A DNA stretch of 64,000 bases from Antedon mediterranea (Eukaryota > Echinodermata > Crinoidea > Comatulida > Antedonidae), in contig NC_092677.1 of assembly GCF_964355755.1 (NCBI RefSeq), positions 7,383,001-7,447,000 on the forward strand, read 5' to 3'. The position numbers and the translations under genes were made by a program. Below are positions 1,423 to 63,945 of this stretch, in pieces. The notes below the pieces were generated by a model, which saw only the letters and a list, made by a program, of their open reading frames with translations, searched no databases and was not told the origin of the DNA. The first letter of the stretch is position 1. Each line of letters opens with the position of its first letter.

Positions 1423-1479
1423 ATGGTTATGATAAACTGTTTGCCAGCTTTCAAACTATTGTGTATTGCATTGAACTAA
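1423..1479 (+). other. Upstream ORF (18 codons) in the POMGNT2 leader
   Basis: Just after the putative splice acceptor at 1421-1422 an ATG opens a frame of 18 codons that stops at 1479, five bases before the POMGNT2 start at 1484. A ribosome using it would have to reinitiate or be bypassed, so it could damp translation. This is seen directly as sequence; the regulatory effect is inference. Confidence 0.35.
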
Positions 1480-1483
1480 AAGT

Positions 1484-3205
1484 ATGAACCATTACGAATT
1501 ATTGATGACTCTTGGTATCATCGCTTTGGCATACTTAACCTATATCAACAAGAACTTAAACAACAAAATTAAGGAAAATTGCTCGTTTCGACCTTTGAGC
1601 ATCAATAACTATTCTGGCTTCATTCAAGTTGAGGCAAGCCTATTGGACAGTGGCACCTCAGCTTGGTGCCGTGGTGAGAGCAATGTAGATAAAACTTGCA
1701 AGTTTCATTATCTTTGTTATAATTCTTTGAAGGATGATTTTATTTTCTTTCATGGGACAACAAGCATGGCATCAGGACTACCACAAGATCGGTTCAGTCC
1801 AGCATTGGCTGACCTATCTTCTGTACCAAACCATAACACTCAGTATTTCAACTTTGTAGATTTACCATTAGATGCAATGGAGAGCTTTGATCAAATATTT
1901 CTTCTACGTGGAAATAGTTTTATTTTCAACCGTTTTAATCCGGCAAACTTGATGCATGTTTTTCATGATGATCTTTTGCCATTGTTCCACACTTTATCAG
2001 AAAACAATTACGGTGACATCAACTCATCTGATAGTCGTCTTCTTTTCTTTGATGGACATGCTAAACTTGATCATTTCCATCTATACAAACTCTTTTCATC
2101 GCAGATACCTTTATTGAAATCTGATCTAAACAAGTCTGGTAATTCTCTTGTTTGTTTTGAAAGGGCATATATTGGATTATCTAATACAACAACTTGGTAC
2201 CAATATGGATTCCAGGAACCACAAGGTTCTGTAAGAAATTCTGAAATCACTGCAAGAACTATTCTACTTTTCACAGACTATCTAAAAGCTAAATTGGGTA
2301 TTGAGAAGAAGGAGCAATCACAAAGTAGATTAAATGGAATATTGATTGGGCGTAGAACCAATCGGTTGATATTGAATGAAGAACACTTAGTAATGGCACT
2401 AGCTAGAGATCTTCACATTAGTGTCCAATTGTTACACCTTGAAGATACGAGTATAAAAGAGGTAATTCAGAGGATATCATCTACAGATGTACTGATTGGA
2501 GTTCATGGATCTGCCTTGATTCTGTCCATGTTTCTTAAGAAAGGAGCTCTGTTAGTAGAAATATTTCCATTTGCTGTGAATCCTAAACACTACACACCAT
2601 ACAAAACACTGGTTTCCATCCCAGGATTAAATGTCAAATATCTTGCATGGCGCAATATGGAAAGAGAAAACACAGTCTTTCATAAGAGTGCTCTAGCTGA
2701 ATTTGGAGGCATTGATCATTTATCGGCTGAAGACCAAAATAGGATATTAGAGAGTTCAGAGGTGCCTTTACACCTTTGTTGTAACGATCCAGAATGGCTG
2801 TTCAGAATCTACCAAGACACAGTTGTAGATATTCAGTCTTTCATTAGTGCAGTAAGAAAATCTATTTCTGAAGATCTTGCTGAAGAGAGGGACACACCAC
2901 AAATGTATCCTGCTAAAGTCAACAAAGTAGTTTGTAGAAAATTGATGACTGTTGACGTTGTAAAGCTGGAAGTGAATTGGCAACAACCTTGGAATGTTAA
3001 ATATTTGATGTCGGTAATAAAGGAAGATATTAAATATGAAGTCTGGATTCAACAGGCATTTGTTGACAACACAAGAGCATGGATTTTAAACACAACAGGG
3101 TACACATTTGAAGGAGAGTTTCTAGCTGATTCCACATATTTTGTGTGGGTCCGTTGTATAATAAATAACCGAATTGGTCCATTTTCTGATGTTACAATAT
3201 GTTGA
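1484..3205 (+). CDS. POMGNT2: Protein O-linked-mannose beta-1,4-N-acetylglucosaminyltransferase 2 (POMGNT2)
   Basis: Single-exon frame of 573 aa; the vertebrate protein is about 580 aa and also has an intronless coding region. The family adds GlcNAc in beta-1,4 linkage to O-mannose in the ER, starting the core M3 glycan of alpha-dystroglycan. Residues about 6-22 form an N-terminal hydrophobic anchor (type II topology). Family landmarks are clear: NTQYFNFVDLP, NPANLMHVFHDDLLPLF near residue 156, TTWYQYGFQEPQG near 236, the HGSALILSMFLKKG glycosyltransferase-61 signature near 340, and HYTPYKTL followed by AWRNM. PLHLCCNDPEWLFRIYQDT precedes a C-terminal fibronectin-III-like domain (about 485-573) ending in VWVRCI...GPFSDV. 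The vertebrate protein reads HGAQ where this one reads HGSA. An AATAAA signal at about 3418 gives a short 3'UTR. Confidence in the orthology is high. Confidence 0.95.
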   Translation: MNHYELLMTLGIIALAYLTYINKNLNNKIKENCSFRPLSINNYSGFIQVEASLLDSGTSAWCRGESNVDKTCKFHYLCYNSLKDDFIFFHGTTSMASGLPQDRFSPALADLSSVPNHNTQYFNFVDLPLDAMESFDQIFLLRGNSFIFNRFNPANLMHVFHDDLLPLFHTLSENNYGDINSSDSRLLFFDGHAKLDHFHLYKLFSSQIPLLKSDLNKSGNSLVCFERAYIGLSNTTTWYQYGFQEPQGSVRNSEITARTILLFTDYLKAKLGIEKKEQSQSRLNGILIGRRTNRLILNEEHLVMALARDLHISVQLLHLEDTSIKEVIQRISSTDVLIGVHGSALILSMFLKKGALLVEIFPFAVNPKHYTPYKTLVSIPGLNVKYLAWRNMERENTVFHKSALAEFGGIDHLSAEDQNRILESSEVPLHLCCNDPEWLFRIYQDTVVDIQSFISAVRKSISEDLAEERDTPQMYPAKVNKVVCRKLMTVDVVKLEVNWQQPWNVKYLMSVIKEDIKYEVWIQQAFVDNTRAWILNTTGYTFEGEFLADSTYFVWVRCIINNRIGPFSDVTIC

Positions 3206-5064: not shown

Positions 5065-8000
5065 TTACTTGTCTCCATTATTTCGGTCATTGTTCAGTTT
5101 GTGAAGCTTCCGAAGAAAATTTCCATTCTGATTTTCGAGGCAAACACGTTTCTGGGGACTTTCCTCGCCAAAGTCCATTGCTCGTTTTGTCTTCCTCTCC
5201 ATTTTTATCATCGAGTTAATCTCCTTTAAATCCTGGTAAAAAGATAAATTGCAAATTAGTTAAATGTCACTTTTTGAATCTTTTAATAATTCATTTCTAT
5301 AAATTCAAGTCTCACAAATATAAATTGCCATATTGCTTAAACCTTTTTTACACCAATTGTATCATCATTCAGACGGAAAACCATCGGTTCGGTGTACATA
5401 CATTACACAAATACGGTACATAAATTAAATAATTCTAATTCCTCTAAAAGCAGGACAGAATACCTTTCAGGAGAACAACAATGATTGATTATGGTAATAA
5501 TTTGGAAAGAAAAAAAATATAGGCAAAAGTATATTATTGTTATATCACATCATACCTTGGATGGACTTTTGTTGATGTGAAACACCATACTATTCCCAGG
5601 ACTCCTCGGAATACAATTCTTGCGTGGTGATATGTATAACTGGTGCCTATTGGACACTTTCCTTGGCGAAACTTGGTGGGTGCGCACAATAGGTAGAGGT
5701 GAAAGGGTAGGGTGTGCGGCAAGACCATTCTCGTCGCTACTGTCAGCCGGGGAGAACCGGAGCGCAAACGGCTGAACTCGTGTTACAAATATCTGCAAAA
5801 TGGAATATGGCATTTTAAAAATTAGAAATCAGAAAGAAAGTAACAATGTTGATTATTATTTAATCGTCATCAGAAATGAAACTTACTGAATTATAGTACT
5901 TAATAAGATCTCCTCTCTCCTCGTCTTCAAATGATGATGCAGTGCCTGCCATTCTGGTAGGCGTGGGTGGGGCACTATTTGTGGGCATTGTACTAGATGA
6001 CCTTGCAAGCATTTGACCAAATGGACCTTTAAGAAAAACAATAAATGTAATGAAGTACACTCTATTATATTTGTCAATGTTAGGAGGTCTGAATTTGATG
6101 GTAAACAATAATAATATATGTTTTAAATAAAGTAAACAATTTGGGGAAATTCTCTCGGATCACCTGTGTCCAATAATTTCTTGACCCTCACAAAGGAAAT
6201 ATACTATACCAAATCAATGATGTTGAGTATCTGGTCTGCTTTATTAAAGTAAAATGTCATACATGTTAGCAAAAAAAAAATAGTTCATGATCTGAGCCAA
6301 ATGCTTCATGCATGCAATGTTTATTTCTAGAAGTAATGTCGCATTATATGTCAACGAAACGTCACTAAGGTATTTATACTCATTGTGTTTGCATTTTTGG
6401 TTTTTTTTTAGATGACGGGTGATCCATCCAGCAATCATCAGCTGATCATTAGGGACCCTCAGAGGTTCACAAGACAAACATATACACAAGATGCTCTACA
6501 TAAACAAAGTCTTATTACAAGCCTTTGGGAGGGGAGTTGTAATTTTGTCCTTAGAAAAAATCCTGACATGTGACGGGACTTGAACCCAGGACCCTTGGAG
6601 TGGTAGCCAAGCATCCTAACCACCAAGCCACAACTCAACACCAAAACAAGTAAATTTGTCGAAACCAAATGAATTTATTCAATACCTCCTTTGTGTTTAT
6701 GATCACTCTCTGGGGAGCTACTACTGCTGCTACCATTTTGCGAGGTAGCGCTAGCCCTACTTGAGCACCGCCCATTGAGTAGTACGCTCCTGTAGACATG
6801 GCTCTGAGCTTGTGGTTGCATCCTGTAACAACGCATTATCTCCTGAAATTGTTGATCATGTCTGGTCACCTAAAAACAGATTTAGGAATACAGTTACTGT
6901 AATTAAGTTGTTATTGTTATCTTGTATTATTTAACATTTTTATTATTTGCACATTATTAATTTGACAAGATAAAGAAAAAACCATAGTTGAATAATTTTT
7001 GTAAAATACTTAGCAAAAACAATACTTGACGATAAAAACCATACATTTGAAAATAAATGACATTATAATTTATAAAACACATAATATTTAAGGATTCCAC
7101 ACTCACTTTGCATATAACATAGATAGAGCACATTAGCAGCTGATCTAAATGCCTATCTTTCATTAAGTCACTGTGATGGACGATGGCGTGCACGAAACAC
7201 GTCCATATCTTGCGACGAAGGTCATCTTCAATTTGCAGTCTTGAGCACAAGTCAAGTAATCTGACATTTGCAAGGTGGTAAAGCTATAAAAGGCAAGAGA
7301 AAAAAGTGCAAGTTGTGATACATGGGGACCTCTGAGGATGTAAACCCCTTCAGGTTGTGAAAGGGATCTTTTAAAGATGGATCTTTTAGGATGTAAAGGG
7401 GTTCTTCACAAGGTAAAGGGCACTCTTCATCAGGATATAAATCTCCTTTAGATATACAGGGGATCCCTTCAGATGTGAAGAAGCTCCTTCAAGAAGGGAA
7501 TCCCTCAGGATTCAAACAGGATCTCTCAAAATGATGCAGAAGGGATCTCTTAGGATGTAAAGACGATCCTTTAGGATGTAAAGGGGATCCCTCAGGATGT
7601 AAAGGGGATCCCTCAGGATGTAAAGGGGATCTCTCAAAATGATGCAGGAGAGATCTCTTAGGATGTAAAGACGATCCTTTAGGATGTAAAGGGGCTCCTC
7701 ACAAGGTAAAGGGCACTCTTCAGCAGGATATAAATCTCCTTAAGATATAAAGGGGATCCCTTCAGACGTAAAGAAGATCCTTCAAGAAGGGGATCTCTTA
7801 GGATATAAAGAGGACCTCTCAGAATATAAGAGGTACTTTTCAGGATATAAGTCTTGTCACAATAATTAGAATCTACAAACTAATAATAGTAGAAAGAAAT
7901 ATTTACCTTTCTGAAGAAGAGTCCAACTGAACCTGTCCTCTTTGGTTTCTTAGCTACAGGTTCGGTTGCTGGTTGCACTGCAGCTGGTTTCTCTATCGTG

Positions 8001-11000
8001 TTACTTGCCACTTGTGATGCTGTTGTAAGTGTAAATATATTTTTGTAGTTAGCCGACGACTCACCCATCTTAATTGGACTTGCTATTAGGTGGATTGTTC
8101 CGTCTTTATTATTTACAGCTGTCAATAATAAGTAGGAATGTAATAAGTAGAACTAAATGTACTAATTAACAATATGTTAATTAAATAGGAGTTTTCACTA
8201 AATAGGGATTGACCGTAATGTAAAAACATATGGGCAAATGTCCTCTTAAAAGGGTTTCCTAAAGAAGAGGTTTGACTGTAGTCTTTTCTACCAACTACTT
8301 ACTTTGCACTTCAACGGTGACAATTTTCTCATTTGGCTTTGTGACTATTTGTGCAGTCTGCACTGCAGGAGTGGACGAGTTGGTTGATGTGGTAGATTCA
8401 GAGGGAAAGAGACGCCGTTTAGCTGACCCTGGTGATGGTGAACTGAAACGATCATGGGCAGACACAGGTGAACCAGTAACTGGATCTATTGAACAAAGAA
8501 TAAGAACATATGATGATGTAGCTAAGTAAGTCAGATTGTTTGTATTACTCTGACGTTTTATAGAAAAAAATTGTTTTAAATAGTGCTACTGAAGAAAAAA
8601 AATGTCCATATAAAAGGCACATCACATTTTGTTACATAAAGTTTGATAGTGTAAGAGATATTTTATTTAATTTGTACCATATTCCATCAGACTTTTAAGA
8701 GATATAAATTTGTGATTTTTTATCTGTATACTATTATGTTTTTTATTTTTTAGAGTAAAGTGTTTTACATATACTGTAGTGTTCTTAAATGTTTTAATAC
8801 TTCTTAACCAAATGTTTTAAATATTTTTATTTTCTACTATGAAGTACACTCAAAATATTTTCCTATTTGAGGATGAAATAAAGTGATTTAATGAATTGAA
8901 ATCTGTACCTCTCTTAGGTGGTTCCACTCCTGTAAGAGCTCTGACACGAGGATGTTGCATAATTGGTGAACCGATCTGTGGTGGAGGTGGATGACTGTTA
9001 ACCGAATTCTGTCCGTTATCAATCTGACTTGGCAATGTAACATCCTCACATGTAGGTACACTGTTGCTGTTGTTAGGTACGCTGCTACTGCTGCTGTTAG
9101 AATCGCCTATGACATCCCAGAGTGGTGAGTTCGATTTCCAGGCACACTCCTGTAATACTGCTTCCTCAACCTGTAATGATATATTTATTTGTTTTACTCA
9201 AGTTGACTCGTAGATATAATACATCTTTGTGTCATGTATATGGCCTTGTTAATACTGTAGTGGGAGAGAATTCAGAATATTCTGGTTACGGGAGAGCTCG
9301 CTGTATTATTTTATAAAATACAAACTGCTGATTCATACCGTATTTAGATGCTTCACCACATCACGTGACAAGCCATCTTCTGCCCTCAGGATCAGCTCGA
9401 TAACTTTGTAAAAGTGAAATGCGGGGATATCAAAAATATCTATTATCCAAGGAAATGTTCTGTGAAATAAAAACAAATTTTGAATAAGAAAATGTAATCA
9501 TAAACTATGTCACTGTATGATGAAATTTGTCATCATTATACATTAGGACTCCTTCTTTGGTGCACCACTATTGAAAGCGTACTTACAGACAAGGGGAAAT
9601 ATACGTTTAAACATTATATAAAAGACTCGCTAGAGGCTAATAGCTAATTAAGAACAGTGACATCTTTTTGGGTAACAAACATGAGGGCTCTTTTGTATTT
9701 GAAATAATTTAACAATTTGTTTTAGAAATATCAGATTTCAGAACAGATTATTCCATTTTCTATTTTACATGATTTTTCATATTTTACTTTTGCTATGTAT
9801 TAAAGACCCATTCCCTACATTTTTTAGGTCTAATTTAAGACAAACTACATTAATGTAAAAATAAATACTATATGGTCCTATTGAGATAACTTTTTTGTCT
9901 TTAAATGGTTAAAAATGTGAAAATTAAGGCGATTCTAATAATTTTAGCAGCCCGCTATAAATCCCAACATGCATTGCACGCGGATTTATAGAAGACTCTT
10001 AACATTTCAACGAAAATACTGGGTTTCCCCAAATTTGTATCAACGGAGTCTGCCAAAAACAGAAAGATAGTTAATACAGCAACTATAAAACGTCAGACTA
10101 GGCTTTAACTAACGTACGATGTTTGTACGTTACCGATGTTCGTATGTTACCGATGTTTACCAGCTAGGCTTAAAGACGGCCAACGAGAGTACATTCACCG
10201 CGAGCTACTAGTGTATTGTTTTTACAATACGTCACAAATTGTAGGGAATGGGTCTTTAAACAAGTCTATGTTTTGTGCACAATGGGCTGATTTAAGTTTT
10301 GGTACATACCTTTGAGAGTTATAGGAAAAAATGACAATTTCCAAACAACAGGCAAATAATGACGTATGAAAGATATCATGTTCCAGTAAACTCTAAAGGA
10401 AATCAAAACAAACAATAAAGATCTGTTAATACTTAATATATACTAAAAAAAATCAGACACAATCACAGAAATTCAACCACCTAAATCTCTTTTAAATTCA
10501 GTGACTCAGATCATTCGACACATAAACAGTGTAAACACCTATTCATTTTCTTTTTTATTACTTTCATTCATTATATTCATGCACGCACACTACCTTTCAT
10601 CAAATGAAAGTTACATTGTTATTATTCAATTTGGGAATTTCCAATTGAGTATAGTTTTTGTTTCCATCGAGTATTTAGGTAACAGCTCAAACTCTCAACT
10701 ACAAGCTTGTGTTAAAATAATGTTTACCATTTCAAAGAACATTGGTGCTTCTTCTTTTTTTATTATAATTAAAACATTGTTCTTGAGAATTGTGTAAATA
10801 ATGTAAACAGTTATAACCAAGCAATAAAATTATTCTTACCCCTAAATTTTTCTTTCCTTGTAAACGTTTTTTCTCTTCTGTCATAATTGATTCCATAACC
10901 TTGTAGTAGAGAGTCTCCGCCAATTTAAGTCGCATTTTGGCAAAGTCCACATGGGAGCCTGCATGTACCTCAGATGACTGGAAAAATAATTAAGTTTTGT

Positions 11001-44166: not shown

Positions 44167-45005
44167 TAAAAACATAACGTAAATAAAAAAACTCGGTTTG
44201 TCTTCCAGTCCAAGTGCAAACTTTATTATTAACCGAACATTTCTTTTTCATTTATGTGTAGAAAGTTCAGTTATTTCCAAAGATTTTATTATTAAAAATA
44301 AATAAAAATTAATGAATGTATTTTTGATTTATAAACAAGTTTTATGAAGGATACTATGTATGTTCTTTAAACTATAGTTTTAAATAGTATTCAATATAGT
44401 AATACTTTATATATATAAATGACAAAAGAATGTTTATTTAAATTTTAAAATTAAAGAATTTTAATTCATAAACAAAATAGAATATTTAAATAATATCTTG
44501 TGTGTTCTTTTTGTTCCATTAATTTGAAGAAATTTATTTTTAATCTGGTCATGATGAATAATAGACAAGCAGTATCATGTCTTGTGACAATAAACATTCT
44601 GCAGTATCGCGTCTTCTGACGGCAATCTTCATCTCATGAGATAATCGGCTGGAGCTTTTAATGTGGCTCCATAGATTCTAAGATATTTGTATCAATAAAC
44701 ACTTAATCATTTTCATTGAATATTAATAGCTGCACTTAAGTACGAGTGAGCCAGCTAAGAGCTAAGTAAATCGCTTCATTTTAAAATCTTAATATAAGGG
44801 AACAGTTCGTTTTGAAAGCTTAGATTAGATGTGAGAATTTCTTAATGAAATGTAAAATGTGTGCATACATGTATATACTTATGTGTAGTGCGTCTTAGCG
44901 CGCAGCCGAGGAGTTTCCGTGAGAATTTTGACCGTAGTAGGGAGTGCGTTTGCGGTTGCTGGTTTCTTCAGGTTTACAACAGGAATCATCAGTGTTTCGT
45001 AAAAA
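44167..45005. other. Intergenic region: IMPACT 3'UTR and GPCR 5' region
   Basis: Poly(A) signals for IMPACT at about 44181 and 44300. The right part is AT-rich DNA leading to the GPCR start. No further gene or RNA recognised. Confidence 0.4.
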
Positions 45006-48000
45006 ATGCACCACTATATATACCCAGAACATGAAGTAACAACTTTTTTGTTCGCTGATATTCTTTATTATTGTTTTATACCGTTTGTTTATATTGGAAA
45101 TCTTTTTACGATCGTTCTTCTATCGATTGTCTTCCGTAAACGACGAAAACCTGCCGATTTAATCGTCGCTTTCTTATCACTAAACGATTTTTTTCTCGGC
45201 GTCTTCCTATGCACCCCGACGTTAGTAGCTACCGGGAAAGGAAAATGGCCCGGAGAGACATTCTGCTATATCTACGCTCACTTATACAGTTGGCATATGA
45301 ATGTGAAGTTTTTCCTTGTGATTATGGTAGCTGTTGATCGTTATATCGCGATTGTAAAACCATTTCAATATGTCATTATCGTAACAGAATCTAAGATATC
45401 AAAGATAATTATAAGTTATATACTCATATTTGGCGTGGTAGTCGGTGCAGTATTCCTGGTCACCGAGCCTTACTTGATGCCTGGCTGGTTTTGCACTCCG
45501 AGACTTTGGAAAGAAACCTTTTCGCCAAATGAAACTGAGCATCATGGAACGATCGAGTCACATACTGCGCTCATTGTGTGTTACTGTGGCTTAATAATTT
45601 ATGGTTCTGTTGGTATGTCGGTTATGCTCTTTTGTAATTTCTCCGTTTTTCGAGTATTTCGTAAGAAGATACATTTAGCCAATTCTGAGAAGAGATTCAT
45701 GCATATGATGATTGTTATAGTAATTGCCTTTTTGGCCGTATGGATACCTCACGCTGTAAGTAAAAATTATTATAGTTTAATTGTCCCTATGGCCGTTTGG
45801 ATACCTTTTTTTTTATCTTGAAACTAATTAGGCCTAGATGAAACAAATTAATGATAATAATAATTTATAAGTTACTTTATTTTTTTTTAATTTGACAAAA
45901 TGAATTGAATATTCACAAATGTACTTAGGGCGTACTTCTTAAATTGACTGCTGACCAATAGAATGATGGTTTACCAAACTTTAGTTAGTTGAAGATTTTA
46001 CTATTGGAATCGGCAAAAAAAGAGGAAATGTTAGATAGGAGATGTATACAGCACACAAATACAAACTATGGCTGATTAACGATACAATTTGATTGAATAT
46101 CTCACAGTTAATAATGTGAAAAAGTCACCAGTCTATGATACCGAATGAAAACGGTTATTTCAGTGCATTAGGCCTAGGCATACAATGTAAACATACTTTA
46201 ATGATGAAAACGCATGTCACACCCGCTGATAGTGAAGTTTATTAGGGCTGAAATAAGGGTGTTGACCACCTTATACGAATTCAATTTTTGATGCAAGCAA
46301 AATTACCCCTTGCGTCACGTAATTTGCATAATTTAAAATGGCGGACATTTTCATTTAAAAACTCAATATCTCTTAAACTACTGGTCATAGAGTGACCGGA
46401 AGTAGGCCTACCAGTTTTAACGTTTGACCCATATTTTAAGGCATTGCCATCTCAGTTAATAGTTGTCACAGACAGTTTATTTGTTCAGAATATATATGTT
46501 CCTATTTAATTTAGTTTAATGAAACATTTAATTCAAAAATGCCCGGAAGTACGCAGTTTTGCCTTTGACCTTTTGACGAAAGGAGAGACCATAATATAGT
46601 TCGAGTCTCGGTTGGGGCGAATTTTTCTCATTCTCACAGATTTCCTCATCTTTATCGTTTCAAATTAATTAATTAGCCTAAATTTCAGTATATCACCGGG
46701 CGGTTCAGAATTAATTCTTTGCCTGATTTGTTTATATATATATAATCTGCAGACAGTAGCCTACTGTTTCGATCTTATTAGATCTCGTCAGTGCAGCTAA
46801 GGTTTAGAAATGAAATGTACCGCATATATAAATATGGTTTGTTTGTTTCTTTCTTTATTTCCATTCACAACAAAAACATAAACATACATAAATATTCATT
46901 ACATATATGAATGGGAAGACCCTATATTACGGATCCTAATGGTAATTCATCATTAACTAACAACATGCATTAAGCTTTTCATAATATGGCATTGATATCT
47001 CGACATACTCTTGTACTATTTTGGGTAACTCCTCAATTGAGGGAATAGGTTTTGATAGCTCTTTTTTAAAACCACCCGCTGTTAAACTGTTGGAAAGCCA
47101 ATTATAAATAGGCTCTATATCCCAAATTGACTGGGCCACGTTCCACTCTACACTTGGCTTCCTGTCCCAGCTTAGTAAACCATCGTTATACTCAAACCCA
47201 ACGGCTTCACAATATTTTTGTAGAACTTGTTTAGGATTTTTTAGCAAATCGTCTGCATTTACAACAAATGGTTTCTTGTCGTTTTCATTTTCAAGGTAGC
47301 AGTATAGTTCCCAAAGCTCTTGATAGCCCAAGCCTTCTGGAAGCCAACGAGAAAGGTTGCCATCTACGTCATCTGCACCGGTAGATACCATCACATTGTA
47401 ATAAGACAAGAATGATTTGATTGGATGTCGTATAAGAAATGAGTGTTTATAGCCTTTAGCGATTTTATCATACCGTTTATGAACGGCGTAACCCATGTCT
47501 TTTACAAAGACACATTTATTCTCTAGTGATTTATCTTCCAGACTTGCCTTCACTTTGCTATAAGTATACTCCAATTCAGCAGGAGAATTATCCATTGAGA
47601 TAAGACGTCCTTCCGGGCCGTAGTGATCTGCGCAACCGTATGGTTCATAATATATTGCTACATTGTGAATACTTTCCATGCTTCTGGTAAAGGCGGTTGA
47701 CAGGGATCTTGGAACTGCCCAAAGAAAAACGTGCGCATTTCTTGATGACGTCATGGTTTTCTACATTTCAAAATAATATAAGATAAATCTTTATTGTCAT
47801 AAACACAATATTGGCATAACAATTTTACAGGTACTGTAAACATCTACACCCGCAGAAGAATCACATTATATACAATACATGGGAAACTTTGGAAAAAGAC
47901 ATAGGGCCTATTGATATTGAATTAGTTTTACACTTTCAAAGACCAGAGTTGAGTACATGCTTTTTAAAGGGTCATAAATATTTCCATTATTTCTTATAGG

Positions 48001-58772: not shown

Positions 58773-61700
58773 TTAGTACCGATCATGACCATTACCCAGG
58801 TGAGGAATCCTGCTATCTGGTTGGTTGTTCTTTAACAGTTCTCCTTCACTCATACGACGATTAACACGACTCTTATCAAATTGCGGTATCTTATTGTCTT
58901 CCGGTCGTTCAGACTGACTGCGCTGATACTCGTGATCTTTATTGTTCATATCTTCCGGGGCTTTTACTTTAGTATCATCTTTTGTCGGTTCTTTATCTTT
59001 TTCTTCAGTGTCTTTTTTCAGTCGTTTATTTTTCTCTGTCATTTCTTCTTCGCTCTTTCTTTTCAATGCTGCTTCGTATCCAACTGGCCTGAATGCCTGT
59101 AATAAGTTGTTCAGTTTCTCATCTGTCGGCGGCCATTTCTCAAATGCAGCATCATTTTGAAGGAAGAACACCATAGTTGCCTGAGTTGAACGGATGTATA
59201 ATTCTCGACTAATAATAATTAGTAAAAATTCATAAATAAACTTTAATCAATTTTGTAATGAAAAGAGTTTAAAGTTATACAAATATATGAATAATAAAAT
59301 GGATATTTGTTTTACAAGCCTTTGTTCTTATCCAGGCCAACAGTAAACGGAAAACCATGTAAGCTACAATCTGTATCTATCCTAACGGAAATCGCCCATA
59401 TTCTCCGCATTTTTTTAAATGGTCATAACAACATAGATTCTATATTTTTATTCCTGTTAACACTTTTTGACTATATGGAACATGTAGTTAGTACAATAAA
59501 TTTAAAATATAAAACTTACTCATCAATGATATGCTGCATTCCATGGCGAAACTCATGGTCATACCCAGGAACTACAACATGTTTTCGTTTGAATCTGAAG
59601 AAAAAGCAGAACAAAATCATTTATAATTCAGACCGTTTATGAAATAAATGCATTGCTTTTTTTGGTTTGCATGTGGTTAAGTTACATGTATATGTAGGCA
59701 CCATTTGAATTGTGTGATGATAGGCACCGCTAAAATTCATATAATTATGTATGTTTGATGTTAAATAAACAAATAAACGAGCTGCTATTAAAGTAAACAG
59801 AACTTACTCGCTATTTTCCATCTTGTCAACCACAGAATTAGCATTCTTACGTTGGTCTGGCAGGAAGATAATAAATGACAAAGGCTCTCCAGTCTTCTCT
59901 AGTAACACCTGTAATAGAAAAGTGCTTCTTACTTATTCATTCAACACAATGTACAGCACTTATTACCTCCGCCAGAATGGCGAGAGGTTATGTGGTCGAT
60001 CGTGTGTGTTTCTATATTTGTAGAATTACTCAAAAAGATATTGCCTGGTGTTCATAAAATTTGAAAGAATGGTTTCATAGCTGTATGGGAACACATCATT
60101 ACATTTTCATATGCCTAGGCAAAGATATGCGCTCTCCGAGTGCCTATTCTAGTTTCCATTGTGGTCCTATATAATTGAAATATATAAAACCCACAACAAA
60201 TGGCAAGACTATTACTGTAAGGTATATAATTTATTATGGTCTTATAGTGTTGTGAGACATCAATATCAAACAGTGCATTATAAATGTTAAAATCATACAT
60301 TTTTATATAATATATATATATATATATAAAACGACAGGGAGGGGTGACATCATATCTTACAGTGCATTATAAATGTTAAAATCATACATTTTTATATAAT
60401 ATATATATATATATAAAACGACAGGGAGGGGTGATATCATATCTTACAGTGCATTATAAATGTTAAAATCATACATTTTTATATAATATATATATATATA
60501 TAAAACGACAGGGAGGGGTGACATCATATCTTACACAGGAACAAGCTGGACTGAACAAAATGGCAGAGGCTTGAAAAGGGCTACATCCGACAGGGGATGA
60601 TGGAGCCAAGTTAATATAGTGAATTTCTATAATTTAAAGTTCATATAATATTCTGCTTAACTTACCTCTACATGTTTGACCATAGCTTCTATGGCTACAT
60701 CACATGGCGGTGGGAAGGCCTGGAACGATCCACTTATGGGGCGGAAATCTTGAAAGGGGCTAATTAAATGAATATTTAATTAGAAATGCTCTTTTTCTAT
60801 ATATGTATGTACCTTAATATTATGCAAGTAAAGAGAATAAGAATAACAAGAACACATTTGCTACTACTAAATGTATAGTACTGTAGTAATAAAACAAACG
60901 TTGAGACATTCTGAATTTTTATTTATTTTTTAAAATTTTAATAGTGCTTTAATTAGTTTTGCAAATCTATCAAATGTACTTACCCCCTAGAACCAAAATA
61001 GCCATCTGTATCAAGGAAGAGGGAGCAATACTGTTTGAAGTAACAGTTCAAAGGTGATGCAAAACATTCAAAAGTCACACCAAACTGTTCTTGTAAAACT
61101 TGTAATACAGGAATGGGCAACGACCTCTGAAAGAATTCACCTTCCATACGATTTAATCCAAAGAACGTCTAAAAACAAAGGGGAAAAAAAGATTGCATAG
61201 TAATAATTATTGAAGCAATATAACCTTCATATGGGGTATATCCTCTAAATAGGGGTTAGCTGTATATTGACCCTGTTCATTTCCCCTAGTAAGGGGGTAC
61301 CTTGTAGTAAAATTAATTAAGATAATTTCGCTTAAATGCTAGAATAAAATTGATTTCTGGCAGAAAAATATATCTACGAAATAAATGTTAAGTAATGATC
61401 TCACAACATACAGAATATGTTTCATACCTGATATCGCCTCAATAAGCACCATGTCCTCTGTGGGAAGTTGAGTAACTGTTTGTCATCATGGCAGTTTAAC
61501 CGGTATAGGTGGTCCTGAAAATTTAAAAAACAAAACATCAAAATTAGGAGTCTAGGAAATATCATGATTTCAGTTACTAGTTTCTCACATATTAAAACAC
61601 TTTGGTATATAAAACTACATATTCTAATGAATTCTTCATACTACACAATGCAATGTTGAGTCTTCTACGTATGTGACTAAGTATAGTTTTAGGTGGCTTT

Positions 61701-63945
61701 GATTTACCAAAGTCTCATGTCTAAAGCCTAAATTAGAACGCAAGATTATACTTGGTCAGAACAAACAAAATGTAGAGCTATTGAGTCTAACCGTCATTAG
61801 TACAATGTACATATGTTCTGTGCAACTTTATAGACACATAGCCAATTGGCACTTTGTAAATCAATTCAATATCGGTAGTGTACGACGATAGTATGGATGA
61901 TAAACTTACAAGTTTTTGTATGTAGCTTGTATTAATTTCCATCATCTCTCCTTTATACCGTAACCGTGTAATCTTAGGATCTCTGTTGAACTCCACAGTA
62001 GGCAGCCTAGGACTAGGTATCACCAACTGAGCAGGGTAGCAGTTTACCTTACGTACTGCAGGCGGCCTCAGAGATGGGGGTTCTATATAAAGTAAAATAT
62101 CATACATGACTATATTTCTAAAGGCAAATTACTGAAAAAATGACAATGCTGTGGGTATCAGTGGCTGGATCTCAATGGAGACATGATAAAATAAGTAAAA
62201 AGTGGTGCTGAAGCTTGGTGGTCAACGTGATTGCCTTCCAATCTAAAAGGTTCAATCCTGACCTAGTGCCACGGTTGTAACTCACAACCCTTTATAAGCC
62301 TTAAATGAGACTTAGTTTATAAGCATAATACATTTTAAAATAGTTTATCCTGTAATTGGTGAGTTACTCGCTGTGGGATGCGTATGGAAAAAAAGAAGTT
62401 ATATTTCCACAAGGCAACAGCCTCACTGGGAGAGACATTATACTAATTTGCTTGATATAATACCTCCGATGTGGTGTTCTTTTAATATCTCCCACTGTTG
62501 TTCATGTATTTTCTTGACAGCTTCTTTTGCTCGTGTGTAAAGCTTTGTACAAATTCCTTCCACTGATGGTTTGGCTGCAGCAAGAACATGCGCTCCACAC
62601 TGCTTCTTTAAATGTTCTAGTCGTTCCTAAAAAAATATACTTTACATTTAAATAATGTTTAATTCTATCTACATGTATTATTAAGGAAACTACAATATAC
62701 AAATAATGAATGTCAATGAGTTGGATGATCAAAAATATTTTATCAGATTAGCCAGCATAAGATTTTTGTTTGTACGCAAGAACGTTTTTTTCGTACAAAA
62801 AAAAGCCAGAAAAAGACTATTGCAGTTTAATAGTATATCTCTATATTCAATATCATGTGACCCACAATCAGGCAATCAAATGACAAGAATCTATTCATGT
62901 GTGTTATAAAGTTAATTAATACTAATGTGCGACTTCCCTTTGTTTTTAAATTAGTCTAGAATTTAGATCAAGTCGATTTTGGTAGATATTAATAACACTA
63001 ATGTATGGCTTGCATGATTGATCACATCACACAAAACTCTACAAGATAACATGTTTCATCACAATGTCAGAGCAGCAGGCCTACATTAAGTAGCTTACCT
63101 TGTACGAGTCTAGACTACAATACGGCTGCGTTCTGATCCATTTCAGAGCATCTTCACACTGCCATTTCACTACCTTCCTACTCTCTGGTGGTACATTTCT
63201 ACACATAAAACAGAGTTTATACTGTACTTATAGAAGCAATTGCAATATTGTTGTTTGACTGTCTATGCTTAAAATTAATTAAATACAGAGCAGGGGGTGC
63301 CTAGAAAACTCAGAACTCTGACTTTTCTAGATCTAGAAAACTCAGATATCAAGATCTGAGTTTTCTAGTTCCAAAATGGAACTAGAAAAACCCAGATCAT
63401 CAAATGGATCGTTCCATTATTAATAGAGGGTAGCTTGTTTGAATACTACAATATTATACGTTTTCTTATTGTAGCTTGTAGTAGCAGCCTATGCTATAGT
63501 GTTAAAAACACATATTTCACTAGAAATTGTCTACTACATAGGGGTGTCCCAAAGGAGGGATTCTATTGATGAATAGAATTGATAAATGATTTTAGAATTT
63601 ACCTCGACTCCACCATCTTCTTAGCTGCTTCTGCATAGCGAACTAACTGCTGCCTGGCATCTACTAAATAGCGAACTCGAACCAACCTAGACAAAAATTA
63701 TTTGTTTTCTTTTAAAGAACTTGCTTAGATTTTTATTGATTGCATCAGTAACATTTAATATCATGAAATGACAATTAAATCATAATATAAACCTCACCTG
63801 ATTGGTATTTCATTAATTATTTCGTCAAATAATATTGGGGATACAGGTGGGTCACAGTCAGAGGGCAGCATAGGGTCATGACCTTTGTCCTTGAATATCC
63901 TTTCCAACAACCAAAAATTAAAAGATTCTGCTGGAGCATCCACTC
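58773..63945 (-). CDS. PCIF1: PCIF1 (cap-specific m6Am methyltransferase / phospho-CTD-interacting factor), partial: last 11 exons
   Basis: Exons, 5' to 3': 63945-63798, 63686-63603, 63198-63099, 62626-62464, 62082-61910, 61514-61428, 61168-60984, 60759-60666, 59908-59808, 59594-59520, 59208-58773. Phases agree throughout, giving about 547 residues; the N-terminus with the WW domain (about 160 residues in the human protein) is off the right edge. PCIF1/CAPAM binds the phosphorylated RNA polymerase II CTD and N6-methylates the cap-adjacent 2'-O-methyladenosine. Diagnostic stretches are FGVTFECFASPLNCYFKQYC, LDTDGYFGSRGP, FRPISGSF, EPLSFIIFLPD and TMVFFLQNDAAFEKWPPT. The catalytic NPPF motif is replaced by FPPP (SFQAFPPPCD in exon 60759-60666), while residues on both sides align without a gap. 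The C-terminal tail (about 105 residues) is Lys/Glu-rich. Folding is probably kept, but methyltransferase activity is doubtful. Confidence 0.92.
60270..60535. repeat. Three-copy satellite, about 88 bp unit, with a (TA)n core
   Basis: CAGTGCATTATAAATGTTAA ... (TA)n ... AAAACGACAGGGAGGGGTGA repeats three times at about 60271, 60359 and 60447 with almost no divergence. It lies in a PCIF1 intron. The low divergence implies recent amplification. Confidence 0.85.
62118..62182 (-). mobile_element. 3' fragment of the hammerhead-like repeat, copy 4
   Basis: AAGGCAAATTACTGAAAAAA through TCAATGGAGACA matches the 3' 65 bases of the repeat at 48978. The ribozyme-like 5' part is absent. It is in a PCIF1 intron. 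Confidence 0.65.
62196..62430 (+). mobile_element. Second tRNA-derived SINE family
   Basis: A tRNA-like head (TGAAGCTTGGTGGTCAACG as A box region and GGTTCAATCCT as B box, 62205-62265) precedes a body with CTTTATAAGCC. It differs from the SINE at 48731. It is not a functional tRNA because stems are broken. Confidence 0.55.

Follow-up and report, generated by a model that had tools for sequence, protein, structure and literature searches.

The only PCIF1 orthologue found in Antedon mediterranea is, as far as its sequence and the behavior of characterized relatives allow us to judge, probably a pseudoenzyme that no longer methylates caps and that is kept as a factor associated with RNA polymerase II (Pol II). 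Both catalytic residues and residues that hold the cap are replaced in an otherwise intact gene, and enzyme activity has therefore most likely been lost. The predicted protein is most likely inactive as in Drosophila, with a more thorough loss of the catalytic motif.

The gene lies on the minus strand at the end of the window (the whole stretch of 64,000 nucleotides that was analyzed), and the gene model, built from genomic sequence with a start codon of our own choosing, was extended past the window end. It comprises 14 exons, running from an ATG at window-scale position 66493 to a stop at 58773 in an open frame of 762 codons, and all 13 introns (13/13) are GT-AG. Exons 1 (66140–66493), 2 (65610–65743), and 3 (64862–65016) are given on the scale of the window but lie past its end, and their contig positions are obtained by adding 7383000. 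These are followed inside the window by exons 4 (63798–63945), 5 (63603–63686), 6 (63099–63198), and 7 (62464–62626); exon 8 (61910–62082), in which the match to PF12237 starts close to the exon end; exon 9 (61428–61514); exon 10 (60984–61168), which encodes FECFASPLNCYFKQYC and the conserved Rossmann-fold core; exon 11 (60666–60759), which carries the motif; and exons 12 (59808–59908), 13 (59520–59594), and 14 (58773–59208), the last with the stop codon and a charged C-terminal tail.

The identification of this gene as PCIF1, made in an initial sequence-only reading, is upheld. PF12237 matches residues 436–611 of the protein over the whole 176-position profile (216.3 bits; cut-off 31.1), a WW domain (PF00397) is present at residues 79–109 (E 8.7e-8), and identity to the PDB PCIF1 chains is ~52% (255/493 for 6irv and 257/493 for 6irx, counting the columns in which both chains align). 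Residues 165–661 align to 6irv free of gaps, with a helical domain followed by a methyltransferase domain. Among PDB chains, the WW domain is closest to 2jx8, the WW chain of PCIF1 (E 9.5e-15), and the WSRRE segment is identical in the two; the serine of this segment is presumably Ser54, by analogy with Pin1. Ser54 of the PCIF1 WW domain is named as a contact of the Ser-phosphorylated C-terminal domain (pSer-CTD) in a review (PMC11550742).

Two tandem repeats occur at or near the gene: an 87-bp unit (3.2 copies, 96% matches) at 60256–60535 in intron 11, downstream of the motif exon on the gene strand, and a 186-bp array that begins ~4.4 kb upstream of the start codon and extends from window-scale ~70936 to the end of the examined stretch (L003:2436-10000), with 41.2 copies in that stretch. 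The window as a whole (GC 33%; CpG observed/expected 0.61) also holds a 576-codon frame, stop to stop, that matches Glyco_transf_61 (1475–3205, plus strand); retinoblastoma-family frames (6957–9197, minus strand), with RB_B above and RB_A below cut-off; a rhodopsin-family GPCR frame (45003–45821, plus strand); and, ~1.1 kb from the latter on the opposite strand, a Sulfotransfer_5 frame (46957–47760, minus strand).

Exon 11 (94 nt, minus strand) encodes GPFQDFRPISGSFQAFPPPCDVAIEAMVKHVE when reverse-complemented and translated; the acceptor before it ends in AG (...AATTAG), and the donor after it is GTAAGT. The motif stretch of the exon is SGSFQAFPPPCDVAIEAM, vs. SGSFEANPPFCEELMDAM in both 6irv and 6irx, such that codons TTC CCA CCG CCA (60705–60716; residues 543–546) place FPPP where active enzymes have the catalytic NPPF (human residues 553–556). 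The sequence-only reading had placed the exon at these same coordinates, had read FPPP, and had set it against the human string; 6irv and 6irx carry the letters of that string, both key residues (Asn and Phe) are indeed gone, and the neighbors, phases, and splice sites around the exon, which it had described as intact, are so in the rebuilt gene. By hand count, the FPPP codons differ from any set of NPPF codons by at least five bases, spread over two separate codons, so that a single sequencing error does not explain them; moreover, 58773–66493 contains zero Ns. The exon is entered in phase 2 and left in phase 0, and skipping it would thus break the frame.

For residue numbering, we take 6irv to be human PCIF1. 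The figure legend of one review says the opposite (6IRX human, 6IRV zebrafish; PMC10544176); the limits of the human loops in the same review (F479–P494, N553–C557, and P612–N638) fit 6irv at every end, and 6irx has G at N638. Because 6irv and 6irx share their residues at all five positions considered here, the conclusions are independent of which chain is human. According to a second review, Arg239 and Arg269 in the helical domain and Glu563 in the methyltransferase domain are crucial for recognition of the m7G ribose (PMC11550742). When N553 is used as the anchor, E, N, and A stand at positions 239, 269, and 563, and a shift of 4 is the only one among 169 that gives R, R, and E in both chains; the three positions are therefore taken to follow the numbering of the other species and to correspond to human R235, R265, and E559. 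With the numbering shifted in this way, human R235 is replaced in Antedon by F225 (codon 63914–63916, minus strand), R265 by D255 (63824–63826, minus strand), and E559 by V549 (60696–60698, minus strand), so that Phe, Asp, and Val occupy the places of the Arg, Arg, and Glu that contact the m7G ribose in the active enzyme. As aligned, the change in PCIF1 exceeds the motif change described in the sequence-only reading, in that the loss also takes in the reported cap-ribose contacts.

Vertebrate PCIF1/CAPAM (6irv, 6irx), an active writer of cap m6Am, has the same order of helical and methyltransferase domains and a WW domain of the 2jx8 kind, whereas Antedon PCIF1 carries N553F, F556P, R235F, R265D, and E559V. 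All of the residues that one review passage names for catalysis or for recognition of the cap ribose (5/5; PMC11550742) are thereby changed. Among the 373 columns in which 6irv and 6irx agree, the Antedon protein keeps 229 and changes 144, and the hypergeometric P for 5/5 changed is ~0.008 if the five are assumed to be random draws from these 373 columns.

Human mutants bear on what these replacements would do. Wild-type human PCIF1 rescues m6Am and N553A does not (PMC9124189), and N553A and F556G lower the activity of the human enzyme (PMC11550742). Given that human N553A fails to restore m6Am, the combination of N553F and F556P should be inactive, and the loss of cap contacts points the same way. 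By analogy with these mutants, Antedon PCIF1 would be unable to methylate the cap-adjacent adenosine, and PCIF1-dependent m6Am is predicted to be absent in A. mediterranea.

The sequence-only reading had invoked Drosophila as a precedent for a catalytically inactive PCIF1 that still acts in transcription. The Drosophila gene (CG11399), like that of Antedon, is kept with an altered NPPF; the change is Phe to His, and no m6Am was detected in flies (PMC9479742). The fly protein associates with chromatin, is recovered with Pol II in co-precipitation, and is required in the embryo, again with no m6Am signal (PMC11588057). The fly lesion differs: NPPF is reported to be altered in Drosophila by Phe to His (NPPH), whereas in Antedon Asn, Phe, and the three reported cap-ribose residues are all replaced, so that FPPP represents a different lesion. 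The honey bee orthologue, from another invertebrate in which m6Am was undetected, has Tyr for Phe rather than FPPP, yet that study regards Tyr as an unlikely cause; m6Am was undetected in Caenorhabditis elegans too (PMC9479742). Human PCIF1 that lacks methyltransferase activity is reported to retain its attenuating effect on interferon induction (PMC12896973). Together, the Pol II and chromatin role in the fly and the interferon effect of inactive human PCIF1 suggest that the Antedon pseudoenzyme is kept for a role in transcription. By the same two analogies, it may be retained because its WW domain binds Pol II phosphorylated at Ser5, and would act on transcription or chromatin.

METTL14 offers a parallel: its fold is that of an N6-adenosine methyltransferase and its motif is non-catalytic; it is kept for a non-catalytic role and acts as the partner of an active enzyme, METTL3. 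The proposed state of Antedon PCIF1 resembles that of METTL14 in the retention of the fold with a non-catalytic motif. PCIF1, by contrast, is described as stand-alone (PMC6318281).

The rest of the protein is unevenly conserved. Columns 505–552 of the putatively SAM-binding Rossmann core, which start at the first strand of the fold and reach the catalytic loop (limits that were chosen after viewing the alignment), keep 35/39 conserved columns vs. 194/334 for the rest (Fisher p 8e-5, uncorrected for the several regions tested). The helical domain (174–470, by our limits) keeps 33 of its 47 K/R columns and has a net charge of +7, vs. +6 in 6irv and +4 in 6irx. The catalytic loop keeps 3/5 columns, vs. 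226/368 of the others identical in 6irv and 6irx (p 1); the count is thus ordinary, and what is unusual is which columns have changed. A general relaxation of the substrate loops was considered and rejected: the three loops pooled have no excess divergence (20/39 kept vs. 209/334 for the rest; p 0.22), with 9/22 in the substrate loop (p 0.07) and 8/12 in the active-site loop (p 0.77).

A more speculative extension, to which we give a low probability, is that PCIF1 has been rebuilt as a non-catalytic, SAM-binding cofactor of Pol II that might link early transcription to the supply of SAM while leaving RNA unmarked, with a loss that a whole invertebrate clade may share. Cap recognition and the adenine pocket would then have been given up, and the SAM-fold core and the reader of the phosphorylated CTD kept.

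How much weight each replacement carries was gauged from the PF12237 profile. Costs in bits are the PF12237 scores of altered copies of an 86-residue 6irv fragment; a longer, 176-residue segment of 6irv gives costs that differ by up to ~1 bit (His at 556: 2.2 vs. 1.2), and all are approximate. Ala in place of P554 or P555 costs 5.2 bits, which marks both prolines as firmly held, and position 556 accepts aromatic residues or His (Tyr -0.2, His 1.2, and Trp 1.3 bits). Pro at 556 costs 5.6 bits, compared with 6.6 for a hypothetical column fixed as Phe, and by this measure is the clearest outlier in the motif. Phe at 553 costs 3.1 bits vs. the ~5.7 expected of a fully fixed column with the same weight, and the frequency of Asn553 deduced from the profile is 0.22 vs. 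~0.5 or more for such a column; some family members may thus be without Asn553, although gaps in the column would act similarly to non-Asn residues, which weakens this evidence of variability. The 176-residue segment had suggested that Phe is common at 553 in Pfam (Phe 2.3, Asp 2.6, and Ser 2.7 bits); this was not upheld by the 86-residue scan (Phe 3.1, Asp 2.4, and Ser 2.8 bits), in which Phe is no better than other hydrophobic residues. Glu559 is variable (0.8 bits for Lys). Because the profile leaves some freedom at Asn553 and Glu559, changes at those two positions alone are weaker evidence; for Asn553, the same variability makes possible the wider invertebrate trend that the sequence-only reading had offered as an alternative to an independent loss.

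It is in this tolerance of the profile for residues other than Asn at 553, together with the well-kept columns 505–552 (35/39), that the idea of a surviving methyltransferase finds its support, whereby the conserved SAM core would be used with an altered active site or on a different substrate. We regard this as unlikely: Pro at 556 falls far outside the aromatic/His set of the family (5.6 bits), activity of the human enzyme is lowered or lost with N553A and F556G (PMC11550742; PMC9124189), and the reported cap contacts are also lost. Less likely still is that the gene is decaying and that the motif change is a step of neutral loss, as the joint loss of several functional residues might suggest; decay does not fit with 762 codons free of stops, GT-AG boundaries in 13/13 introns, residues identical to 6irv at ~52% of 493 columns, and a conserved WW domain and core.

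A second intact gene or an alternative NPPF exon, either of which the sequence-only reading had said would overturn its proposal, did not emerge from family, protein, and pattern searches of the one assembly. A genome-wide family search gave one match, which is exon 10 of the PCIF1 gene itself; as this search missed the other exons of PCIF1, it is a blunt test for a diverged copy. A 290-residue protein search of the same assembly gave seven matches, all within the PCIF1 locus. No alternative NPPF-like exon was found in a minus-strand pattern scan of 58700–66500 in three frames, a scan that an intron-split motif would escape. The five hits are the FPPP motif itself, coding SPPS and DPPV elsewhere in the protein, and, out of the coding frame, VPPY next to a stop in intron 9 and FPPH within exon 11. 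Elsewhere in the assembly, a gene retains DPPW and another exon reads DPPL; these we take, from their sequence context, to be METTL3-like and METTL14-like, respectively. A stretch of 593 bp in the METTL14-like region recurs at 97% identity in a second place 253 kb away (G000:C6:5313208 and C6:5566667; L013 and L012), and the DPPL exon was seen in L013, not in L012. That a working NPPF lies concealed in a different exon or a further copy of the gene, or behind an error of assembly, is the least probable alternative, and a very improbable one. In its favor, a single assembly was searched, some stretches elsewhere read N (among them 5,000 Ns in the 13-kb contig C18, of which the first 300 readable bases are short repeats resembling those at the C8 end), the family search is blunt, and an intron-split motif escapes the frame scan. 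Against it, family and protein searches converge on one locus, none of the five pattern hits is an NPPF-like alternative, the 94-nt exon 11 is unskippable in frame and at least five bases from any NPPF, and DPPW is retained in the METTL3-like gene.

Relatives of PCIF1 were also sought in viral and prokaryote contigs. The Antedon protein gave 1 pattern match in viral contigs, and a three-sequence alignment, searched through two short peptide patterns per scan, gave 60 pattern matches in viral contigs and 24 in prokaryote genome contigs; none was confirmed in any of these scans, and the use of two short patterns gives the alignment scans a small reach. The FTO_NTD profile had no match in the Antedon genome, nor in any control genome, and is thus uninformative. 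A COX1 family search of the Antedon assembly was likewise without a match.

An inactive PCIF1 is of a kind already known from Drosophila; FPPP combined with loss of the cap-ribose residues turned up nowhere among the matches listed from the open-licence literature. Whether PCIF1 is important via m6Am or via transcription is unsettled (PMC6378647; PMC12896973), and Antedon PCIF1 looks like a natural separation-of-function form. The pseudoenzyme interpretation makes a simple, falsifiable prediction, namely that A. mediterranea would have no m6Am caps. A PCIF1 that is conserved without its cap contacts and its catalytic motif suggests that a non-enzymatic role alone can keep the gene.
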